Source: Succinispira mobilis DSM 6222 (lineage in GTDB: Bacteria > Bacillota > Negativicutes > Acidaminococcales > Succinispiraceae). From it: DNA of 64,000 nucleotides. The stretch is from contig NZ_KB913028.1 of the NCBI RefSeq assembly GCF_000384135.1, positions 430,351 to 494,350 of the forward strand, read 5' to 3'. A program made the position numbers and the translations under genes. Shown here one piece after another: positions 35,462 to 47,534 of the stretch (positions within the stretch are counted from its first letter, which is position 1; every line of letters starts with the position of its first letter). Below the pieces are notes generated by a model. The model saw only the letters and a list, made by a program, of their open reading frames with translations. It did not search any database and was not told where the DNA came from.

Positions 35462-38176
35462 ATGGCAAGAAAGTTAGTGGACATTCTAGCAAAAGAGGGG
35501 ATTCCTTTACAACAACAAGTTGGTGGGGTTGCTCCTGATGAAATCGTGGATCGTGAGATACACAAAGAACCTACTCCTAGAGGTAAATATTTGAAAGACA
35601 TCTATTTGCAAACTCTTTCTTCAACCACTTGCGAATTTACTTATTGGTATAATCGCAAATACAAAGAAACCGAAGGGGATTTACCAGTAATTAGACGGGC
35701 AGAAGCTCTCAAAGCTGGATTTAGCAGACAATCTGTAGTTATATTCCCGAAAGAATTACTAGTTGGTGGTAAGGCGCCTTATTATCGTGGCTCTTTCCCA
35801 ATGCCTTGGTTATCAGAAGGGTTTTTCTTAGCTAAAGAAGATGAATTGTATCAAGCAGCTCTTTCAGCAGGTAAGGCAAGTGCGGATGAAGTTAGCGTAT
35901 TTGGTGCTGGGGGCGGTAACGTAACCAAAAGCTTTGGTAATGTAGTATCTATTTCTGGTAAATATGGGGTACGTAAAGATGAAGTGCCAGTAATGACCAG
36001 ATTAGCTAAAGAATGGTTTAATAAATCAGTTGATGATATTGGTCATAAATATGAACAAATGGTACCGGAATATGACATTAAAGAAAAAGTAATGCGTTCA
36101 GTAATTTGTATGTTTGACTCTGGTTATACCTTACCACAAGGCCGCGAAGTAATTAACTATTTCTTCCCACTAAACTATGGTTATGATGAACTTATTAAAA
36201 TGTGTGAAGAAGGTAAAAATGCTGTAGCCGGTCGGGCTGATGGCGATGGCGTTATTGGGATGGATAGATTATACTTCTACGAAGCTGCTCGCTTAGTATT
36301 TGAAGGTATCCAACAATGGCACTTAAACTATGTAACTGAAGCTAAACGTTTAGCCGGTATTACTAAAGATGAAAAACAAAAAGCGGAATATCTCGAAATC
36401 GCAGAAATTATGGAACATATTGCCCATAAACAACCAAGAAACTTCCGTGAAGCTTTGCAAATGATGTACCTAATTCATATTGGCGTACTTAATGAAGATG
36501 CAATTTCTGGGATGTCTCCAGGTCGGGTAGGCCAAGTATTATGGCCATGGTTTGAACAAGATATGGCTGCTGGCCGGATTACAGAAGAACAAGTTATTGA
36601 ATTGCTTGAATGTTATCGTGTAAAAATGACTTGTATCGACTGCTTTGCGTCTATGGGTGTTGTAGGTGGCGTACTTTCTTCTAATACTTTCAACAATTTA
36701 ACTATGGGTGGTTTGACTAAAGATGGTCAATCTGCTGCCAACCGCTTAGAAATGTTGATTATGGAAGCTTCGATTAGCTGTCAAACAACTAATCCAACTT
36801 TATCAGTAATGTATGATGAAAAAACTCCAGAAGAATTTATGATGAAAGCTATGGAATGCGAAAAAGCGGGCTTAGGGATGCCGGCCTTCATGAATAATCG
36901 CGGAGGTATGGAATTTTTGTTACAACAATATGGTCCAGAAGGAATGACAGTAGAAGAAGCAAGAGCAATTGCAATCGGTGGCTGTCTAGAAACTTCGCCA
37001 TGTTGCTGGAAAGAATTGACTTTAAACGGCAAAAAATACTGGATTCCTGGCGGCGCTGGTCAACCAACTTCTGTAGGCGTACACTTTATTGCTAATCCAA
37101 AAGTATTGGAAATGGTATTAACTAATGGTTATGACCACCGTACTGGCTTACAAATTTTACCAGCTCATAACAAAAAATTTGCAACATTTGAAGATCTTAA
37201 TGATCAATTTAAAGAATACTATGCAATTGTTATTGACTGTCTAGCAACTACCAATAACATTCAACATGATATTTGGCGCAAACAAAATATGGGTATTTTC
37301 AACTCCTCTTTGAAACCAGATTGTTTGGCTAAAGGACAACATATAGGCAACCTTGGCTATCGTTATAATGGGACTTTCAACGTAGAATCATGCGGTACGG
37401 CAAATCAAATTAATGCTCTAGCAGCCATTAAACACTTGGTATATGACACTAAAAAATATACTTTAGAGCAAATGATTGATGCAATCCAAAACAACTTTGG
37501 CTTTAAAACAGCCGCAGAAGTTGGTAGCTTCTCCTTGGCAGCCCAAGAAAAACGCGATAATGATAAAGGTGAATATGACCAAATCCATGCAGACTGCTTA
37601 AGAGCACCTAAACATGGTAATAATATCGAAATGGTTGATGAAATTTTGAAAGATTATGAAGCTTGGTTCTGTCAAGTTTGCCGTAACTATGAATCCTTAT
37701 ACGGTAAACCAATGTATGCTTGCCAAATTTCAGTATCTACGCATGGAGCACAAGGGGCTGTAACCTTAGCGGGTGCTGACGGTCGTCTCTATGGCACAAC
37801 CTTTGCTGATGGCTCAATGTCGGCTTACCCAGGTACAGACCTCCATGGTGCTTATGCGTTGTTTGAATCAGCTTGCTGTTGGGATCACAGTCAATCACAA
37901 AACTCACAAATGAACTTAAAATTACATCCAAATGCAGTAGCAGGGATTGAAGGTTCACGTAAATTGCTTGACTTGACTCGTTCTTATATGCGTCGTGGTG
38001 GTTACCACATCCAATATAATATCGTTGACTCCAAAGTATTGAAAGAAGCACAAGCAGATCCAGGTTCATACCGTGACTTGTTAGTACGGGTAGCTGGGTT
38101 CACTCAATACTGGGTAGAAATTGGTAAACCAATCCAAGATGAAATTATCTCTAGAACAGAGTATGAAGGGGTGTAA
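35462..38176 (+). CDS. hpdB: 4-Hydroxyphenylacetate decarboxylase, large (glycyl radical) subunit
   Basis: HpdB decarboxylates 4-hydroxyphenylacetate to p-cresol in tyrosine fermentation. The 904-residue length matches the Clostridium enzyme (about 900). The thiyl-radical cysteine is Cys508 in GGCLETS, the glycyl radical is Gly879 in RVAGFTQYW, and Glu510 follows the cysteine. From memory, the Clostridium active-site residues Ser344, Phe405, Cys503, Glu505, His536 and Glu637 all map here with a constant offset of five: Ser349, Phe410, Cys508, Glu510, His541 and Glu642. This pattern and the small subunit next door argue against the indoleacetate or phenylacetate decarboxylases. AGGAGG lies at 35445-35450. 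Confidence 0.95.
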
Positions 38177-38182
38177 GCGAAG

Positions 38183-38452
38183 ATGATGAACGAAAAATAT
38201 AATCACTTAGACTGTGTGAATTTCACACCAATAGATGTAGCTAAAGGTTTTTGCAATGCACATCATGCGCAAATTATGTTAATTGATAGTGATACTTGCC
38301 CAATGTTTGAAGCTAAACAAAAATGCAAATTTTGCTCTAACTTAGCAGATATTGATGAAAAAGGCATGGGTACTTGCCAAGGTTATGCGAAAAAGGATTG
38401 GGCTTATGCAGAAATGGCAGCGCCATTTTGTGAAAAATTCTCTAAAAAATAG
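38183..38452 (+). CDS. hpdC: 4-Hydroxyphenylacetate decarboxylase, small iron-sulfur subunit
   Basis: This is an 89-residue protein that pairs with HpdB and is thought to stabilise and tune the glycyl radical complex. It has the two cluster sets expected of the family: His8, Cys11, Cys24, Cys39 for the first [4Fe-4S] cluster and Cys48, Cys51, Cys65, Cys83 for the second. The spacing matches Clostridium HpdC as I recall it. It starts 6 bp after hpdB, with ATG-ATG giving two possible starts. A strong terminator follows. This subunit is what sets the 4-hydroxyphenylacetate enzyme apart from other aryl-acetate decarboxylases. Confidence 0.95.
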   Translation: MMNEKYNHLDCVNFTPIDVAKGFCNAHHAQIMLIDSDTCPMFEAKQKCKFCSNLADIDEKGMGTCQGYAKKDWAYAEMAAPFCEKFSKK

Positions 38453-38463
38453 CATTTAACAAT

Positions 38464-38497
38464 AAAAAAGCGGGTGTATTTATGCACCTGCTTTTTT
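38464..38497 (+). terminator. Intrinsic terminator after hpdC
   Basis: AAAAAAGCGGGTG pairs with CACCTGCTTTTTT (one G-T pair) around a short loop; the T-run is part of the stem. Confidence 0.9.
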
Positions 38498-38650
38498 AAA
38501 AAGCAAATTATGGGAAAAAACTAATTATTTGCACTAGATAGGAGCGCTTCAGAGTTGAATTGTGCGAATATGGTTTTTAACTAAAAACTACAGGCATAAA
38601 GGTAAGTATTTGGATTTTCAAGAATTTTAAATATATAGAGGTGAAATGTA

Positions 38651-39964
38651 ATGGATGAGAAAAAAGCCAAGAGCATGTCTTATTCCGTAATTGCTGCCGC
38701 ATGGCTCGCAGTATTTTGCTTGTTTGGCTATCGAGCTACGTTTGCAATTTTATCAGGGCCGATGTCGAAAACTATGGGTTGGACAGGGGCTGAAGTATCT
38801 TTAGGCTACTCCTTGATGATGACTGTGTATGCAATTACCGCTTTTTTCAGTGGCATGATCTTAGATAAATGGGGTACGAAGCCGGTATATGCAATAGCTT
38901 CGGTATTTTGCATGTTGGGCTTTTATTTAACCGCCCGTGTAGATAATTTAATGATGTATTATGCTTGCTATGCAATTTTTGCTGGTATTGGTACAGGGAT
39001 GTTGTGGGTATCTTCGACTATTTCTGTAAGAAAATGGTTTGTGGGTAGTTATTATGCCAAAATGTGGGGTATTGCGTTTGCCGGTGCACCAATGGCACAA
39101 GTTCTTTTGAGCTTAGGCGTAAAACCAATGTTGGTGCAAAATGCCGCGCAATGGCGTGATGCCATGAATTATTTGGGCTGGCTATCTTTAGTAGCGCTAT
39201 TAGTAGCGGCAATGTTGGCTAAGAAAAATCCAGAGCAATATGGAATTCAAGCTTTTGGTAGTCCGCCAGCAGGAGCAGGTGGTGCCGCAGCACCGAAAGA
39301 ATATGTTTGGAATATTAGTCAGGCTTTTGGTACTTTCCCAATTTGGGCAGCAATTATCGCCTTTTTAACTAGTATGGTTGCCGAGTTCTTGATTTGGACA
39401 CAAGTTGTACGCTATTGGACAATGGACTTAAAAATGTCTTTGGATTTAGCAACTAATTTGTATGTAGTAATTGGGATTGCCGGAATTTTCACTATGCCAC
39501 TTATGGGCGTAATTTCCGATAAATTAGTTGGCAAGTTGCAAAATGAGGTAAAAGCTCGGAAAACGATGTTGATTTTTGCGCCACTTGTAGGTGTGGCGGC
39601 TTGTGTTTTGTTGTTAACCATGGGACCTTCTTCGGTAGTATTAGGGGGCGTGATTTGTATTTTATTTGCCACTTACTGGGCGATTGAACCAGGGGGCGTA
39701 GTTGGTTATACTGGGGCAATTTATGGTCGGGTAAGTTTAGGTAAAATTTGGGGTTTGGCGACTTTAATTGTTATGGGAATTGGGCCAGCTCTAGGTAGTT
39801 TTATGGGTGGTTATTTGGCAGATAGCACTGGTAACTTTTCTGCTTCAATTAAATTTGCGATGGTAGCTTTTGCAATTTCAGCGGTAGTAGCTTTTCTAAT
39901 GCCGCTAACTGTTAAAGTTCCCGAAGAAAAACCTGTAGAAGTTGGGCAAGCTCAACTTAGATAA
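38651..39964 (+). CDS. MFS transporter, probable aromatic acid transporter of the hpd locus
   Basis: The 437-residue protein has twelve membrane segments and a central loop near 200-220 rich in Gly and Ala. LDKWGTKPVYAIASVF near residue 75 is the MFS loop 2-3 motif. It resembles the OFA/monocarboxylate branch. It lies 198 bp after hpdC behind a terminator, with GAGGTG as ribosome binding site. MFS genes also lie next to related aryl-acetate decarboxylases, so uptake of 4-hydroxyphenylacetate is the likely role. That is inference from position. Confidence 0.82.
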   Translation: MDEKKAKSMSYSVIAAAWLAVFCLFGYRATFAILSGPMSKTMGWTGAEVSLGYSLMMTVYAITAFFSGMILDKWGTKPVYAIASVFCMLGFYLTARVDNLMMYYACYAIFAGIGTGMLWVSSTISVRKWFVGSYYAKMWGIAFAGAPMAQVLLSLGVKPMLVQNAAQWRDAMNYLGWLSLVALLVAAMLAKKNPEQYGIQAFGSPPAGAGGAAAPKEYVWNISQAFGTFPIWAAIIAFLTSMVAEFLIWTQVVRYWTMDLKMSLDLATNLYVVIGIAGIFTMPLMGVISDKLVGKLQNEVKARKTMLIFAPLVGVAACVLLLTMGPSSVVLGGVICILFATYWAIEPGGVVGYTGAIYGRVSLGKIWGLATLIVMGIGPALGSFMGGYLADSTGNFSASIKFAMVAFAISAVVAFLMPLTVKVPEEKPVEVGQAQLR

Positions 39965-40860: not shown

Positions 40861-41538
40861 TTGGGAAAACAAATAAAAATTTTGCTGATTGCAGATAGCT
40901 ATGCTTTACCACGTTTAGCGGTAAAATCCGCGCAGGTAGAATTGAAATATTTACAAACTTATCCCGAACAGTTGCGCCGCAATTTACATAACAACCTAAA
41001 CACAGATATTGTTCTACTAACCTTGGCGGAACACGCTCAAGTTACAACTTGTTTGCAAGTTGATATGCCGATGCAAGTGCGGTTTTTAGAACCTGATTAT
41101 ATTGTTATTCAATTAGGCTTGGCAGATTTGTGGCCGGCTACAGTTAAGAGGGGGGCGCCACGATATCCTTTTTTACAAGGCTGTGATCCATGGGTAAATT
41201 TAGCGGAATATCGTGCCAATATCAAAAATTTTGTCGCGTATTGTCGCCGAGAAAATTCTGCTGTACAAGTGATTTTAATAAATATTCCGTGGGTGTCGGA
41301 AAATCAGTATTGGCGTAATCCAGAGGCTTATGAGCGTACACAAACCTATAATAATTGTTTACAAGAACTGTCTGAACAACTAAAAACAATTTTATTAGAT
41401 TGGTATAATCTTAGCAAACAGTTGGGAGAACAGATTTTGGGTAGCGATGGGCTGCATCTTAATGTAGTTGGTAGCAGCTTGCTAGGTTCTGAGTTAGCAA
41501 ATAAAATTATACAGCAAGTAGGTGAGAGTGATGGATGA
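40861..41538 (+). CDS. SGNH-family hydrolase
   Basis: The 225-residue protein shows SGNH hydrolase blocks: IADSYALPRL with the likely Ser nucleophile near residue 12, IQLGLADLWP near 85 where the usual GxND Asn is Ala, and SDGLHLNVVG near 195 with the Asp-x-x-His dyad. There is no signal peptide, so it is probably cytoplasmic. The enzyme may be a deacylase or esterase on a glycan or small molecule. It starts at TTG behind GGGGAG. The next gene starts inside its last codons, so it is coupled to the DUF4125 genes. Confidence 0.75.
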   Translation: MGKQIKILLIADSYALPRLAVKSAQVELKYLQTYPEQLRRNLHNNLNTDIVLLTLAEHAQVTTCLQVDMPMQVRFLEPDYIVIQLGLADLWPATVKRGAPRYPFLQGCDPWVNLAEYRANIKNFVAYCRRENSAVQVILINIPWVSENQYWRNPEAYERTQTYNNCLQELSEQLKTILLDWYNLSKQLGEQILGSDGLHLNVVGSSLLGSELANKIIQQVGESDG

Positions 41539-42094
41539 GCGGGAAACACTAATTAAGGCGATAGTTGTCTTGGAAGAGGAAATGTTTGTGCAAGTAAATG
41601 CCGCTAAACAAGAACCGGCCTGGTGCCAGCAGGCATTGGCGACATTTAGGTGTATGCGCAATATGAGCCACAGTGTTTTAAGTGCGGAAACCTTACGTTC
41701 CTATTTGCAAGATTTACAGCGTGCCAAACTGGAAGGCCGAAATTTGATTTTAGAGAAATATGCGCGGATGGATAATCTTTGGCCACAAGTGACTCCACAT
41801 CAGTATTTAGATTTTATTGCGGTTACCGAAAATACTTGGTTACAAGATTTGAAAGCGGAATTTCCTAATTTGTTGGGACAACAGGATCGTTTTTTGAACT
41901 ATGCGATAAGTGAGTGGTCAACCTATTCCGCGCAAACTTTGGAGTTGTATTATCAAGATTTGTTAATGGCTCAATTAGCCGGGATAAATTTAGTTAAAAA
42001 GCGTTATGAAAATTTATATAAGAGATTAGGTTTTGCAAATTTGAAAGAAGTGGAAAAATTAGCTAAGAAAAAACTCGCAATTCTAGAAGTTTAG
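41531..42094 (+). CDS. DUF4125 family protein (copy 1)
   Basis: This 187-residue protein matches DUF4125 in its opening LIKAIVVLEEEMF, then LRSYLQDLQRAKLEGRNLILEKYARM. A second, weaker repeat of the same pattern follows: TLELYYQDLLMAQLAGINLVKKRYENL near residue 140. The family is predicted helical, of unknown function. ATG 41531 overlaps the SGNH stop. Copy 2 follows after 51 bp. I have no functional clue beyond the pairing with an SGNH hydrolase. Confidence 0.75.
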   Translation: MDERETLIKAIVVLEEEMFVQVNAAKQEPAWCQQALATFRCMRNMSHSVLSAETLRSYLQDLQRAKLEGRNLILEKYARMDNLWPQVTPHQYLDFIAVTENTWLQDLKAEFPNLLGQQDRFLNYAISEWSTYSAQTLELYYQDLLMAQLAGINLVKKRYENLYKRLGFANLKEVEKLAKKKLAILEV

Positions 42095-42145
42095 AAGGTG
42101 AATGATAAGAATTTGCTCAAAAAAATAAAAATATGGAGGGTGGAT

Positions 42146-42682
42146 ATGAATAAAAAAGATCTTTTAACCGAAATAGTAGCAAAAGAAACGAAACTATTAC
42201 AGGCTTTGCATACGGCAGAACCAGTACCAGCCAACACCTTGCCAGCGTTTAAAAGAATGCGTCAGATGACTTATGTTGTGCTTAGTGAGCAAACTTTACA
42301 GAGTTGGCTAAATGATTTGCAAATAGCCGAACGTTATGGGCGCAATCCGCTAATGGAAAAATATGCTTTGATTGCTGGGCAGATAGCACCACTTAAAGAA
42401 AATCCCTTGATTGGGAAAATTGTAGAACAAGAAATGCAATGGATGGATGCTTTGAGTAAAAATTACCCGAAATTAATTAAGCGCGAAGCTCAAACAGTAG
42501 AGCTTTTCGAAAAATATGCACAGTCGGAGTTGCAAAGTTGGTCCGATGCCTCTATTGAACTTTATTGGCAGGATGTGCAGTGTGGGGCTGCAAAACAAGA
42601 AAATTTTGCGCAACTGCGCTATGAATGGTTAGCAAAAAGTTTAGGCAAGAGCTGTTTACAAGAGCTGGAAGACAGTCTCTAA
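42146..42682 (+). CDS. DUF4125 family protein (copy 2)
   Basis: A 178-residue paralogue of the preceding gene, with LLTEIVAKETKLLQAL, LQSWLNDLQIAERYGRNPLMEKYA and SIELYWQDVQCG at matching places. ATG 42146 has GGAGGGTGG upstream; an earlier in-frame ATG at 42098 has none. A tandem duplication is the simple explanation, with clear divergence since. A strong terminator follows, so SGNH plus the two DUF4125 genes form one unit. Confidence 0.75.
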   Translation: MNKKDLLTEIVAKETKLLQALHTAEPVPANTLPAFKRMRQMTYVVLSEQTLQSWLNDLQIAERYGRNPLMEKYALIAGQIAPLKENPLIGKIVEQEMQWMDALSKNYPKLIKREAQTVELFEKYAQSELQSWSDASIELYWQDVQCGAAKQENFAQLRYEWLAKSLGKSCLQELEDSL

Positions 42683-42984: not shown

Positions 42985-43013
42985 TTGTGAAAAGTCAAAA
43001 AGTCAAATATAAT
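42985..43013 (+). promoter_or_regulatory. Sigma-A promoter of the ctsR operon
   Basis: TTGTGA (42985-42990), a 17-base spacer, consensus TATAAT (43008-43013). The GTCAAA repeats lie inside the spacer. Confidence 0.85.
42993..43007 (+). promoter_or_regulatory. CtsR-like operator (direct GTCAAA repeats)
   Basis: AGTCAAA at 42993-42999 and again at 43001-43007, spaced 8 bases start to start. The known CtsR box is GGTCAAA-N3-GGTCAAA with a 10-base period, so this is a compact variant. It sits between -35 and -10, as expected for repression of the operon by CtsR. Confidence 0.6.
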
Positions 43014-43043: not shown

Positions 43044-43472
43044 TTGGGGAGAAAAATAGCTGATATTATTGAAGAGTTTATTTTATGTCAGTTAGCGGCT
43101 GCCGAACACGAAGATATTTTGCTAAGTCGTAATCAGTTAGCACAACAGTTAAAATGCGCACCATCGCAGATCAGTTATGTATTGCAAAGTCGCTTTACGG
43201 CGGCTAAAGGTTTTTGTTTGCAATCTAGACGGGGTTCGGGTGGCTTTGTGAAAATTTCACGGCAAAATAGTGAATTAGCCGAAGACTTGCAGCTGGAACA
43301 AGAAGCTTTGAAAAAGATATTACAGGAGTTGTTAGTTGCCGAAGAATTAAGCGAATGTCAAATACACGTGTTGCGGGCACTACAAGACCTATTAAAGCAA
43401 GAAACATGTAGTAAGGCACAGTTAGATTGGGTAAAAGGAGCTCTTGTGCATATAGTAAAATTATCGGGGTGA
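43044..43472 (+). CDS. ctsR: CtsR heat-shock transcriptional repressor
   Basis: CtsR represses clp genes until stress. The 142-residue protein opens with KIADIIEEFILCQL, has the winged helix part LSRNQLAQQLKCAPSQISYV and the DNA-contacting wing SRRGSGGFVKI, which is the RRGGGG motif of the family. I chose TTG 43044 because AGGAGGGG ends about 7 bases before it and the protein then matches the family start; longer GTG starts overlap the ribosome site. It heads ctsR-mcsA-mcsB-clpC-radA. The promoter overlaps a CtsR-like operator, which fits autoregulation. Confidence 0.9.
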   Translation: MGRKIADIIEEFILCQLAAAEHEDILLSRNQLAQQLKCAPSQISYVLQSRFTAAKGFCLQSRRGSGGFVKISRQNSELAEDLQLEQEALKKILQELLVAEELSECQIHVLRALQDLLKQETCSKAQLDWVKGALVHIVKLSG

Positions 43473-43477
43473 TAAAA

Positions 43478-44035
43478 ATGAAAGATTTGAGAAATATGTT
43501 ATGCAGTAAATGTCATAAAAATCCAGCTGAAGTTTTTATGACTAGTATTGTCAATAATAAAAAAATAGAAGAAATTTTGTGCTTGGAATGCGCGCTGAAA
43601 AAAGAAGAAGTATCGCAAATGTTAAAACAAGATAGTCAATTTCAGCAGTTTGTTGATCAGGCACTACAAATAAGAAAACAAGTTGCACCAAGGGAGGTGG
43701 CCAAAATAGAAACACAAACTAAAGAATATAAGTTAGAGGTTATGGAAGATTGCCCAGTTTGCGGCACCGGTTTAGAAAAAGTCTTAGAAAGCGCGAGTGT
43801 TGGTTGTGGCCATTGCTATCAGATTTTTGCGGCAGATATTGAAAAAATGTTACCAGAAAATATTTTTGCTAACTATATGGGAAAAATTCCTAAACGGTCA
43901 CGCGCAGAAGATAACATAGAACGAAAACTATTGATTTTAGAGAAGAAACTTGAAGAAAGCATTAAAAAAGAAGAATATGAGAAAGCCGGGGTACTGAAGG
44001 CTGAGATTAAAAGCTTGCAACAGGCGCAACAATAA
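43478..44035 (+). CDS. mcsA: McsA zinc-finger adaptor (activator of McsB)
   Basis: This is a 185-residue protein with two zinc fingers: MLCSKCHKNPAEVFM with CLEC near 8-40, and CPVCGTGLEK with CGHCYQIF near 92-120. A UVR-type helix pair ends it (IEEKLLILEKKLEES and KAEIKSLQQA region near 150-185). In Bacillus, McsA binds and activates McsB and modulates CtsR. ATG 43478 has GGGGTGAT upstream. The gene follows ctsR by 5 bp. Because McsB here lacks catalytic residues, McsA may act only as an adaptor to ClpC or CtsR. Confidence 0.9.
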   Translation: MKDLRNMLCSKCHKNPAEVFMTSIVNNKKIEEILCLECALKKEEVSQMLKQDSQFQQFVDQALQIRKQVAPREVAKIETQTKEYKLEVMEDCPVCGTGLEKVLESASVGCGHCYQIFAADIEKMLPENIFANYMGKIPKRSRAEDNIERKLLILEKKLEESIKKEEYEKAGVLKAEIKSLQQAQQ

Positions 44036-44065: not shown

Positions 44066-45109
44066 ATGAAAAAAAGAGAAATACAAAAAATACCTGCATG
44101 GTTGGCGGGAGTTAGTTCCGAAAATCAAGAAGTGGTGTTGTCTAGTAGTTTAAAGTTAGTAAGAAATATTAAAAACCTACCCTTGCCTTATACTGCCAAC
44201 AGAGAGCAAATGTTAGAAGTCAAAGAACGTTTAAGCGTGGCTTTAGACGTTTTGCAGACGCAAGGCTATACGGCTTGGGAAATGGATGAGCTAACGGAAT
44301 TAGAAAAAGATGTGCTTTATGAAAAACATTGTTGGTCGCCAGAATTGACTGTGGCGACAGATGTTATGTCTTTATATACTAGCTCAGAGTTTAATAGCAA
44401 TATCTTGCTGAATTATAAAGATCATATTCGAATTCGCAATTTTGCCGTAGGTCTGAAATTACAAGAGCTTTATCCGCAAATTAGTTTATTAGATGATTTA
44501 TTGGAAGAACAAGTCGAATATGCTTTTAGCAATAAATATGGCTATCTAACCAAAAGAATAGCTGATGTGGGCACGGGTTTGACGGCCAGCGTAGTTTTGC
44601 ATTTGCCTGCTTTAGTGGGGATGGAAAAAATTGAAAAAATAGTTAAGGGACTGGGTAAATTAGGTTTAGAACTGACTAGGCTATATAAAGACGATCACAA
44701 ACATGCCTTAGGCAATTTATATGTATTACGTAATTTACCGAACTTCACGGAAAATGAACAAGAAATTATCAATAAAGTTACGGGAATTGCCAAAGATTTT
44801 GTCCGCCGGGAAAAACAAATGCGCAATGTTTTGTATTCTAAAGCCAATAATATCGTGGAAAATTATGTTTGGCGAGCGATTGGTTTATTGAAGTATGCAC
44901 GCAGACTTAGTGCGGCAGAAATGTTAAGCTTACTAAGCTATGTGGGGATTGGGATAGATTTAAAGATTGTTACTAGTGTTGAGTGGTTAACCTTGAAAAA
45001 ATTGATGGTACAAGCTCGCGACGGGCATATCCAAGCACAATATGGCAGTAAAATTAATATAGATGAATTACGCGCGACATTAGTGCGTGACGTATTTAAG
45101 GAGGTGTAG
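44066..45109 (+). CDS. mcsB: McsB-type protein, catalytically degenerate arginine kinase
   Basis: The 347-residue protein is McsB by order and by segments such as YGYLTKR, VGTGLTASVVLHLPALV and the C-terminal SYVGIGIDLKIV. McsB normally phosphorylates arginine to mark proteins for ClpCP. The phosphagen-kinase site is broken: SSRxR reads SSSLK (Arg to Ser28 and Lys30), NEEDH reads NYKDH (catalytic Glu to Lys118), the CPTN motif is RIAD (Cys to Arg164), GLRAS is GLTAS (Arg to Thr173), and the loop around 204-213 lacks the usual Arg and Glu. His120 and Arg122 remain. The RDxxRA pArg motif reads IDELRA (332-337). A pseudokinase role is inferred. The frame is intact. Confidence 0.88.
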   Translation: MKKREIQKIPAWLAGVSSENQEVVLSSSLKLVRNIKNLPLPYTANREQMLEVKERLSVALDVLQTQGYTAWEMDELTELEKDVLYEKHCWSPELTVATDVMSLYTSSEFNSNILLNYKDHIRIRNFAVGLKLQELYPQISLLDDLLEEQVEYAFSNKYGYLTKRIADVGTGLTASVVLHLPALVGMEKIEKIVKGLGKLGLELTRLYKDDHKHALGNLYVLRNLPNFTENEQEIINKVTGIAKDFVRREKQMRNVLYSKANNIVENYVWRAIGLLKYARRLSAAEMLSLLSYVGIGIDLKIVTSVEWLTLKKLMVQARDGHIQAQYGSKINIDELRATLVRDVFKEV

Positions 45110-45113
45110 TTAA

Positions 45114-47534
45114 TTGTATACTAGACTTACGCCAGAGGCGGAAAGAATTTTAAAAATTGCGGAACAAGAATGTGCACGCTTTAAGCATTCACACGTGGAA
45201 GTGGAACATTTGTTTTTGGCAATGTTACTGGATGAAGAAAATATCGTAAAGAAAATTTTACGAGACTTAAAAATAGATATTGCGGAATTAAAGGAAAGTA
45301 TCTTAAGTGTTATTCGCGAAGGTAGTAAAGGCGGTAAGGTAACTTTTGGCAATAAAATCAATGATGTATTTATGATTGCAGCTCAAGAAGCAATTAAGCA
45401 GCAAGAAAAATCAGTAGATGTAATTCATTTGTTTATTGCAATATTATTAGAGGGTAATAATATTGTAGTGGAAATTTTAGATGATTTTGATGTTACCTTA
45501 GAGAGTGTGGAAAAATTTGGCGAACAGTTTTTAGAAAATAATCCTTTAGAAGACTTCTTGCAAGCTTATGATTATAAAGCTGACTTTCTAGAACGCTTAG
45601 GTGATTTTGGGCGTAATTTAAATAAATTGGCCCAAGCCGGGAAAATTGACCCGTTAATTGGTCGCGAGAACGAACTAGAACGAGTAATCCAAATTTTATG
45701 TCGCCGGACTAAAAACAATCCGATTCTTTTGGGTGAACCAGGCGTGGGAAAAACGGCTATTGTGGAGGGGTTGGCGCAACGCATTGTGGCTAAAGATGTC
45801 CCGGAATTTTTGTTGGATAAGGTAATTGTTTCCTTGGAAATTGGTTCTTTGGTTGCTGGGACAAAGTACCGTGGTGAGTTTGAAGAACGCTTAAAACATA
45901 TTATTGAGGGCGTTCAAGAAGCTGGAAATATAATTGTGTTTATTGATGAAGTTCATAGCTTAATAGGCGCTGGTGGTTCGGAAGGCTCGGTAGACGCTGC
46001 TAATATTTTGAAACCTGCTTTAGCTAGGGGGGAATTTCAAGTAGTGGGAGCAACCACCTTAGACGAATATAAACGCTATATTGAGCGGGATGTAGCTTTA
46101 GAGCGCAGGTTTCAACCAGTGCAGATTACCGCGCCGACTGTCGAAGAAGGTATGAAGATTTTGCAGGGCTTGAAAGAGCGCTATGAAAAATATCATAATG
46201 TGCAGATTACAGCTCAAGCAATTGAAAGTGCTGTACAGCTATCAGAACGCTATTTGACCGAACGCAGTTTGCCAGATAAGGCGATTGATTTGTTAGATGA
46301 GGCTTGTGCACGAGCCAAAATTAAAAGTTGTTTGCCAAGTCCTAAAGTCAAAGCTTTACATAGCAAGATTGAGAGTAAACAACAGGAAAAAGAGCGGGCT
46401 GTTAAAGCTGAGGATTTTGCACAAGCTGCGAAATTACGGGATGAGGTTTTGGCCTTGCAAGAAAAGTTAGAAAAAGAACAAGGCTTGCAACATAAAGATA
46501 ATCGCAAGAATTCTAAGGTAGACGCGGAATTGATTGCCAATGTTTTGTCGGCTTGGACTAAAATACCAGTTACGCGTTTAACGCAAGGTGAAAGTGAACG
46601 TCTGTTAAACTTAGAAGCGCGGTTGCATGAACGAGTTATCAGTCAAAATGAAGCAGTGCAGGCGGTGTCTAAAGCGATAAGACGGGCGCGGGCAGGAATT
46701 AAAGATCCTAAACGTCCGATCGGCTCATTCTTGTTTTTGGGACCAACTGGAGTCGGGAAAACTGAGTTAGCACGTGCTTTAGCAGAGGTACTGTTTGCCA
46801 ATGAAAATAGCATTGTGCGTTTTGATATGTCGGAATATATGGAGAAACATACAGTTTCTCGTTTGTTGGGAGCACCTCCTGGCTATGTAGGCTATGCAGA
46901 TGGCGGTCAGTTAACTGAGGCTATTCGACGCAAACCCTATTCAATAGTTTTATTTGATGAAATTGAAAAAGCACATACTGATGTATTTAATGTCTTATTG
47001 CAAGTTTTGGAAGATGGTCGGTTGACAGATAGTCGAGGTCGGATTGTTGATTTTAAAAATACGGTAATAATTATGACTAGTAACATTGGGGCTAATCATT
47101 TTAAAAGTTCCGAGGGACGGCGCTTGGGTTTTGCTACGGAAAGTTCGCAACAAGCGGCAAGTAATGTGAAAAAATTAGTGTTAGAAGATGTACGGAAACT
47201 TTTTAGACCAGAGTTTTTAAATCGGATTGATGATATTATTGTCTTTGATTCGTTGCAGGATACAGATTTGATTAATATTGTGAAAACGATGATTAAACAG
47301 TTGCAGACGAGATTACTTGAAAAAGAGATTAAGTTAGAGTTGACGGATGCTGCTTATCAAGAAATTATTAAAAATGGCAAAGATTTAAAATATGGAGCTA
47401 GGCCGTTGCGTCGCGCTATTCAGCGTTTATTAGAAGATGAATTGAGTGATAAATTATTAAAAGGTGAATTGCAGAGTAAAAAAACCTTACAGGTTGATTG
47501 CCAAGAAGGCAAGCTGTCTTTTGCCCAAGTATAA
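45114..47534 (+). CDS. clpC: ATP-dependent Clp protease ATP-binding subunit ClpC
   Basis: ClpC is the AAA+ unfoldase that feeds ClpP. The 806-residue protein has an N-domain (1-140) of two repeats, D1 with Walker A GEPGVGKT near 208 and IVFIDEVHSLIGAGG, a middle UVR region near 415-455, and D2 with GPTGVGKTE near 545 and FDEIEKAH. It starts at TTG 45114 behind AAGGAGGTG. In the N-domain the first EH motif (Glu31-His32) is present but the second reads Ile104-His105 instead of Glu-His. In Bacillus ClpC those two glutamates (32 and 106) bind phospho-arginine. The length is usual. Confidence 0.95.
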   Translation: MYTRLTPEAERILKIAEQECARFKHSHVEVEHLFLAMLLDEENIVKKILRDLKIDIAELKESILSVIREGSKGGKVTFGNKINDVFMIAAQEAIKQQEKSVDVIHLFIAILLEGNNIVVEILDDFDVTLESVEKFGEQFLENNPLEDFLQAYDYKADFLERLGDFGRNLNKLAQAGKIDPLIGRENELERVIQILCRRTKNNPILLGEPGVGKTAIVEGLAQRIVAKDVPEFLLDKVIVSLEIGSLVAGTKYRGEFEERLKHIIEGVQEAGNIIVFIDEVHSLIGAGGSEGSVDAANILKPALARGEFQVVGATTLDEYKRYIERDVALERRFQPVQITAPTVEEGMKILQGLKERYEKYHNVQITAQAIESAVQLSERYLTERSLPDKAIDLLDEACARAKIKSCLPSPKVKALHSKIESKQQEKERAVKAEDFAQAAKLRDEVLALQEKLEKEQGLQHKDNRKNSKVDAELIANVLSAWTKIPVTRLTQGESERLLNLEARLHERVISQNEAVQAVSKAIRRARAGIKDPKRPIGSFLFLGPTGVGKTELARALAEVLFANENSIVRFDMSEYMEKHTVSRLLGAPPGYVGYADGGQLTEAIRRKPYSIVLFDEIEKAHTDVFNVLLQVLEDGRLTDSRGRIVDFKNTVIIMTSNIGANHFKSSEGRRLGFATESSQQAASNVKKLVLEDVRKLFRPEFLNRIDDIIVFDSLQDTDLINIVKTMIKQLQTRLLEKEIKLELTDAAYQEIIKNGKDLKYGARPLRRAIQRLLEDELSDKLLKGELQSKKTLQVDCQEGKLSFAQV

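Follow-up and report, generated by a model that had tools for sequence, protein, structure and literature searches.

McsB, the protein-arginine kinase described in Bacillus subtilis, Geobacillus stearothermophilus and Staphylococcus aureus (PDB 6fh1, 6tv6, 8wtb and 8gqd), is a model for bacterial protein marking; what it does as a kinase is difficult to tell apart from what it does as an adaptor in B. subtilis. In that organism, McsA binds McsB, activates the kinase and blocks its action on DNA-bound CtsR; oxidised McsA releases McsB, and the freed protein strips CtsR from DNA although it is no longer a kinase (PMC5506225). Here we analyse a 64,000-nt stretch of DNA from Succinispira mobilis DSM 6222 (the window, within which all coordinates are given), whose mcsB gene encodes a full-length McsB that has lost the arginines of the ATP-phosphate site, the catalytic glutamate pair and the catalytic cysteine (Table 1). 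Like the described enzymes, this protein has phosphotransferase and dimerisation domains, the same operon position and the partners CtsR, McsA and ClpC; unlike them, it lacks the catalytic Cys, the Glu pair, four arginines of active-site motifs and Arg337, and it scores under the family cut-offs. The non-catalytic mode with McsA and CtsR that we propose for it resembles kinase-independent McsB activities of B. subtilis, namely CtsR removal under thiol stress (PMC5506225) and the partial adaptor effect of the C167S variant on MgsR turnover (PMC7235348), but these are activities of a protein that is otherwise an active kinase, whereas catalysis in the window protein appears to be wholly gone. 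Bacterial Ser/Thr pseudokinases also keep a fold and a constrained sequence while losing catalytic residues, but their fold is unrelated, and the survey that describes them sets arginine kinases aside (PMC12599244). None of the open-access papers that we searched describes an McsB pseudokinase; subscription papers and preprints lay outside that search. Judged from sequence, the window McsB is a real pseudokinase and part of a wider abandonment of arginine phosphorylation in its class.

Results

The window McsB keeps its frame and length and has lost its kinase site

The best structural match of the window McsB among Geobacillus and Bacillus McsB structures was 8wtb (E 1.1e-48, residues 9-342), and the PF00217 domain was present (E 4.1e-37). 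The protein nevertheless fell under every curated McsB cut-off (NF002194, 269.7 vs 385; NF053707, 245.8 vs 500) and was the weakest McsB among the 364 genomes of the phylum with a match (1.1e-37; the next, 1.6e-44). The substitutions that the initial annotation had named in SSRxR, NEEDH, CPTN, GLRAS and the 204-213 loop were all correct when aligned with Bacillus and Geobacillus McsB structures and with 20 other intact McsBs; that annotation did not note that the equivalents of Arg34, Asp123, His124 and Arg125 are retained, nor the two further points below on the C-terminal motif and Cys89. Each of Arg29, 31, 34, 125, 176, 207 and 337 of B. subtilis McsB is essential by R-to-K mutation (PMC7235348), and five of these seven are lost in the window protein (Arg29 to Ser, Arg31 to Lys, Arg176 to Thr, Arg207 to Thr and Arg337 to Ile). 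The last belongs to the C-terminal phospho-arginine motif RDxxRA, which reads IDELRA, with the Asp and the RA retained, in a placement that lies beside an alignment gap. The only cysteine of the window McsB, Cys89, is next to the retained histidine of the EKH motif and away from the catalytic place.

We scored the window protein at 68 columns that are at least 95% conserved among 21 intact McsBs. Within active-site motifs, 14 of 29 columns were kept (48%) and 15 lost, compared to 30 kept (77%) and 9 lost among the 39 columns elsewhere; loss is thus concentrated in the active-site motifs (Fisher P=0.021). Sequencing error or a pseudogene in the assembly is an unlikely source of these changes, as the source genome is a single contig (2,085,243 bases, 98% complete), the frame is open, the codon composition of mcsB resembles that of neighbouring genes, and comparable losses occur in relatives.

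The genome holds no second kinase of this type and no YwlE

The window mcsB is the only PF00217 gene in the genome, and no second McsB or phosphagen-kinase-type gene was present elsewhere in it. A pattern search of the same genome for the P-loop of YwlE-type arginine phosphatases, CxGNTCRS, found none, and a weaker match to the pattern was a chance one. The genome's only protein resembling low-molecular-weight protein tyrosine phosphatases has an arsenate-reductase-type loop, CVHNSCRSQ. Apparent YwlE-like loops in genomes G000, G029, G093 and G190 were chance matches, outside phosphatase frames. Because the site is dismantled and the genome has neither a second kinase-type gene nor YwlE, the initial annotation's picture of the system as one without marking is well supported, and phospho-arginine marking through this McsB has presumably ceased in the cell.

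Loss of the kinase site and of YwlE recurs across the class

We surveyed 250 genomes of the class, of which 170 carry McsB; families (f), genera (g), genomes (G) and loci (L) are referred to by number, the window's family being f1. Losses like those in the window recur in f7, f35 and part of f15. The catalytic Cys and the GLRAS Arg are lost throughout f7, as is the lid Arg in 14 of 14 tabulated f7 proteins, and f35 McsBs have lost most of the tabulated positions. In f15, g32, g52, g77 and one g58 genome have Ser, Val, Tyr or Gln instead of the Cys, which others retain. The YwlE P-loop CxGNTCRS was found in 0 of 77 genomes of f1, f7, f15 and f35 and in 90 of the 93 genomes from the remaining families with McsB, which were scored as intact; the genomes are not independent, and the evidence is the contrast between families. 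One of the three exceptions, G016 (f19, L189), combines a high-scoring McsB with a YwlE-like protein reading CTGNICRS, in which Ile replaces the Thr that marks arginine phosphatases. A search of genome contigs for McsB returned only three, all intact and distant, and viral contigs held no further related sequences.

In a ClpC tree from which the N-terminal domain was excluded, f35 grouped with the intact, YwlE-bearing f31 (98/90), f7 lay in a larger clade with the intact f28 and f31, f15 lay elsewhere, and the window grouped with the intact f3 and f4 (100/99). A RadA tree agreed, with a weaker grouping of f31 and f35 (88/82); in it, f2 was the sister of the window (93/72), and f4 and f3 branched outside this pair. 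The exact placement of the window rests mainly on RadA because its ClpC branch is long. Since f1, f7, f35 and f15 occupy separate branches, YwlE appears to have been lost separately in each, and the arginine kinase site and YwlE appear to have been lost independently in several families.

CtsR, its putative operator, McsA and ClpC

The gene order of the window, ctsR-mcsA-mcsB-clpC, is that of the known McsB operon, and order and gene length are kept, as first noted. The CtsR protein retains the wing motif RRGSGGF. From the known CtsR heptad repeat, we infer an operator role for the box upstream of ctsR, which adjoins the -10 box in the arrangement of intact relatives; comparable boxes with an 8-bp period lie 5' of ctsR in f3, f4, f9, f14, f17, f21, f28 and other families. 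CtsR boxes with this period read GTCAAA-AA-GTCAAA in the class (the window box and L109, L111, L112, L118 and L124). L059 and L060 have boxes with a 10-bp period instead. The canonical CtsR operator with a 3-bp spacer is absent from the window promoter, the class using a 2-bp spacer, and no box pair with an 8-bp period was found upstream of ctsR in f7 or f35.

Both McsA zinc fingers are retained in the window. McsA Arg96, which is needed for kinase stimulation (PMC7235348), is represented there by Ser (SASVGC vs GRFGC/GKxGC). Intact relatives have Arg or Lys at this position, f14 has Thr and f7 mostly Lys; the Arg is lost in 8 of 9 f35 proteins (mostly to Leu, Met or Glu) and in f15 g52 (to Gln). 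In ClpC, Glu32 and Glu106 are the key contacts for phospho-arginine and also hold the resting state, and the S. aureus E106A variant is partly active without phospho-arginine (PMC12583610). The window ClpC retains the Glu32 equivalent (Glu31) and has Ile in place of Glu106, so that one of the two pocket glutamates is left. Loss of Glu106 is particular to the window, and f15 g52 has a change at Glu32. The GTEH/GSEH glutamates are mostly retained in f7, f35 and even in f2, which has no McsB, so we rejected the idea that pocket loss generally accompanies loss of the kinase.

The whole ctsR-mcsA-mcsB-clpC module has diverged fast and the neighbouring radA has not. RadA identity is 63% both between the window and f3 and between f3 and f4, whereas the corresponding values are 34% vs 51% for McsB, 32% vs 49% for McsA and 53% vs 64% for ClpC.

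Constraint on degenerate McsBs and deletion of mcsB

The degenerate McsBs of the 26 matched f1, f7 and f35 genomes are full length and free of stops and frameshifts, except that one is truncated by a contig end. Pairwise ratios of nonsynonymous to synonymous substitution rates (dN/dS), which become least trustworthy at dS values above about 1.5, were 0.07-0.12 in f7, 0.10-0.22 in f35 and 0.10-0.14 in f15 g52, compared to 0.06-0.14 for McsBs of intact families. The degenerate proteins of relatives are thus constrained, and the window and f7 retain 77-83% of the invariant columns that lie away from the active site.

In other genomes mcsB is gone. G169 and G187 (f35; L207 and L208) have ctsR-mcsA-clpC with mcsB cleanly missing, the other f35 members carrying a degenerate mcsB, and none of the 59 listed f2 genomes has the gene. 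Six f2 loci (L202-L206 and L209) lack both mcsA and mcsB and consist of ctsR, a clpC whose product has an N-terminal McsA-like finger, and radA. The fused finger, C-x2-C...C-x2-C, appears to be McsA's first zinc finger. The f2 pair of ctsR and clpC with a fused finger may resemble the ClpE-type zinc-finger Clp ATPases of McsB-less Gram-positive bacteria, but the f2 ClpC still has its double Clp_N domain. A different reduction is seen in G120 (f7, L091), where the operon is ctsR, an mcsA without the first zinc finger, a pseudo-mcsB and radA, and clpC is absent from both the operon and the genome.

Discussion

Because the gene stays intact despite loss of the kinase site and of YwlE, and because this recurs in related families, our results suggest that McsB has a second job that is independent of the arginine tag. 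With moderate confidence, we read the pseudokinase as retained for work that needs no kinase activity, the likeliest being control of CtsR gated by McsA. In such a switch, McsA would hold pseudo-McsB through its zinc fingers, oxidation of McsA thiols would release it, and the freed protein would remove CtsR from its operators and so induce the Clp genes, perhaps also presenting CtsR to ClpC. For a strictly anaerobic lineage, this would amount to a redox-gated repressor switch without chemistry. The function is one that we infer from sequence, with good motivation: CtsR, its putative operator and the McsA fingers are kept, and G120 has no ClpC, so a CtsR/McsA role is favoured over that of a pure ClpC adaptor. 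That G120 keeps its pseudo-mcsB suggests that the partner retained in its lineage is CtsR/McsA and not ClpC. Accounts in which the pseudokinase bridges CtsR, McsA and ClpC, as the initial annotation had it, stand in part: gene order, the operator and purifying selection in relatives speak for a retained function, and the three-way bridge would be a further step, with G120 lacking clpC.

Several observations weigh against this reading. The ClpC-adaptor activity of B. subtilis McsB depends on its kinase activity (PMC5506225). The loss in f35 is not specific to the active site (49% of active-site and 50% of other columns kept), and the selection values are those of the relatives f7, f35 and f15 g52, since the family of the window is a singleton. 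The later deletions in f2, G169 and G187 show that mcsB is dispensable over time, and an AlphaFold2 model built with four sequences reached a pLDDT of 53, too low for a model of the pocket.

An unlikely alternative is that the window McsB is a non-catalytic adaptor or scaffold for ClpC, which binds CtsR and unfolded proteins and passes them on, the CtsR switch being secondary. It would fit the position of mcsB immediately 5' of clpC in the window, as in all other examined loci that have both genes, as well as the joint divergence of ClpC, McsA and McsB. The loss of Glu106, taken with the effect of E106A in S. aureus, also suggests that the window ClpC may no longer need phospho-arginine for activation. 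This ClpC change is not general, however, as f7 and f35 retain both pocket glutamates alongside pseudo-McsB, and the pseudo-McsB of G120 persists without any ClpC.

We consider it rather improbable that the window gene is a decay intermediate, in which a kinase made useless or harmful by loss of YwlE drifts towards deletion with little present function. The absence of mcsB from G169, G187 and f2, the RadA sister of the window, accords with such drift, as do the f15 gradient, where YwlE is missing and the Cys is kept in some genera and replaced in others, and the unspecific pattern of loss in f35; yet dN/dS of 0.07-0.22, uninterrupted frames in the 26 genomes and the conservation outside the active site in the window and f7 weigh against it. 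That a remodelled site still phosphorylates arginine, or some other target, is very improbable. Although the Arg34, Arg125, Asp123, His124 and EKH histidine equivalents and a Cys at 89 are present, a single R-to-K change at Arg29, Arg31, Arg176 or Arg207 abolishes B. subtilis activity, and all four are lost here, as are both Glu and the catalytic Cys. The one Cys present lies away from the catalytic place, and the genome has no YwlE-type phosphatase.

Beyond the window, McsA-gated control of CtsR by a pseudokinase could belong to a wider history, plausible but in our view somewhat short of probable, in which one class gave up arginine phosphorylation several times (in f1, f7 and f35, and partly in f15), YwlE and the active site being lost on each occasion while McsB stayed on, under selection, to regulate CtsR without catalysis; the window lineage would then represent a pseudokinase stage before the loss of mcsB and the fusion of a zinc finger to ClpC in its sister family. 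Naturally occurring McsBs that lack the kinase site, in separate families that have also lost the matching phosphatase, suggest that evolution has separated the two roles of the protein, and they make a kinase-free role testable. A genome with mcsB need not carry out phospho-arginine marking; within this class, such marking is better predicted from the YwlE signature of a genome.

Features and neighbouring genes of the window

Table 1. Positions of the ctsR-mcsA-mcsB-clpC genes, the putative operator and the substituted sites.
Feature	Position	Strand	Basis or remarks
Putative CtsR-type operator, AGTCAAAAAGTCAAA	42993..43007	+	adjoins TATAAT (43008-43013), the -10 box of the ctsR operon
ctsR, class III stress repressor	43044..43472	+	Pfam PF05848, E 2.4e-27; TTG start at 43044 after AGGAGG (predicted start)
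mcsA	43478..44035	+	NCBIfam NF053706, E 4.7e-24; both four-Cys zinc fingers retained; alignment to 8wtb chain B
mcsB, predicted pseudokinase, full length, 347 aa	44066..45109	+	homology and open frame; ATG start
McsB Ser28-Leu29-Lys30 for Arg29-x-Arg31	44147..44155	+	ATP-site Arg motif SSRxR, now SSSLK
McsB Tyr117-Lys118 for Glu121-Glu122	44414..44419	+	NEEDH to N-Y117-K118-D-H
McsB Arg164-Ile-Ala-Asp167 for Cys167-Pro-Thr-Asn	44555..44566	+	catalytic Cys is Arg164
McsB Thr173 for Arg176	44582..44584	+	GLRAS to GL-T173-AS
McsB lid loop Thr204-Arg-Leu-Tyr-Lys-Asp-Asp-His-Lys-His for RGTYGEGSE	44675..44704	+	VRGTYGEGSE to L-T204-R-L-Y-K-D-D-H-K; Arg207 lost (Thr)
clpC	45114..47534	+	TTG start; N-terminal domain divergent
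ClpC Ile104 for Glu106	45423..45425	+	key residue of the pArg1 (phospho-arginine) pocket; GTEH to DVIH

Elsewhere in the window, positions 35462-39964 encode 4-hydroxyphenylacetate decarboxylase, with a glycyl radical large subunit (NF033715, 1720 bits) and a small subunit, followed by an MFS transporter, likely a p-cresol-forming cluster. At 41522-42682, two adjacent DUF4125 paralogues of 190 and 194 aa lie downstream of a GDSL-type hydrolase.
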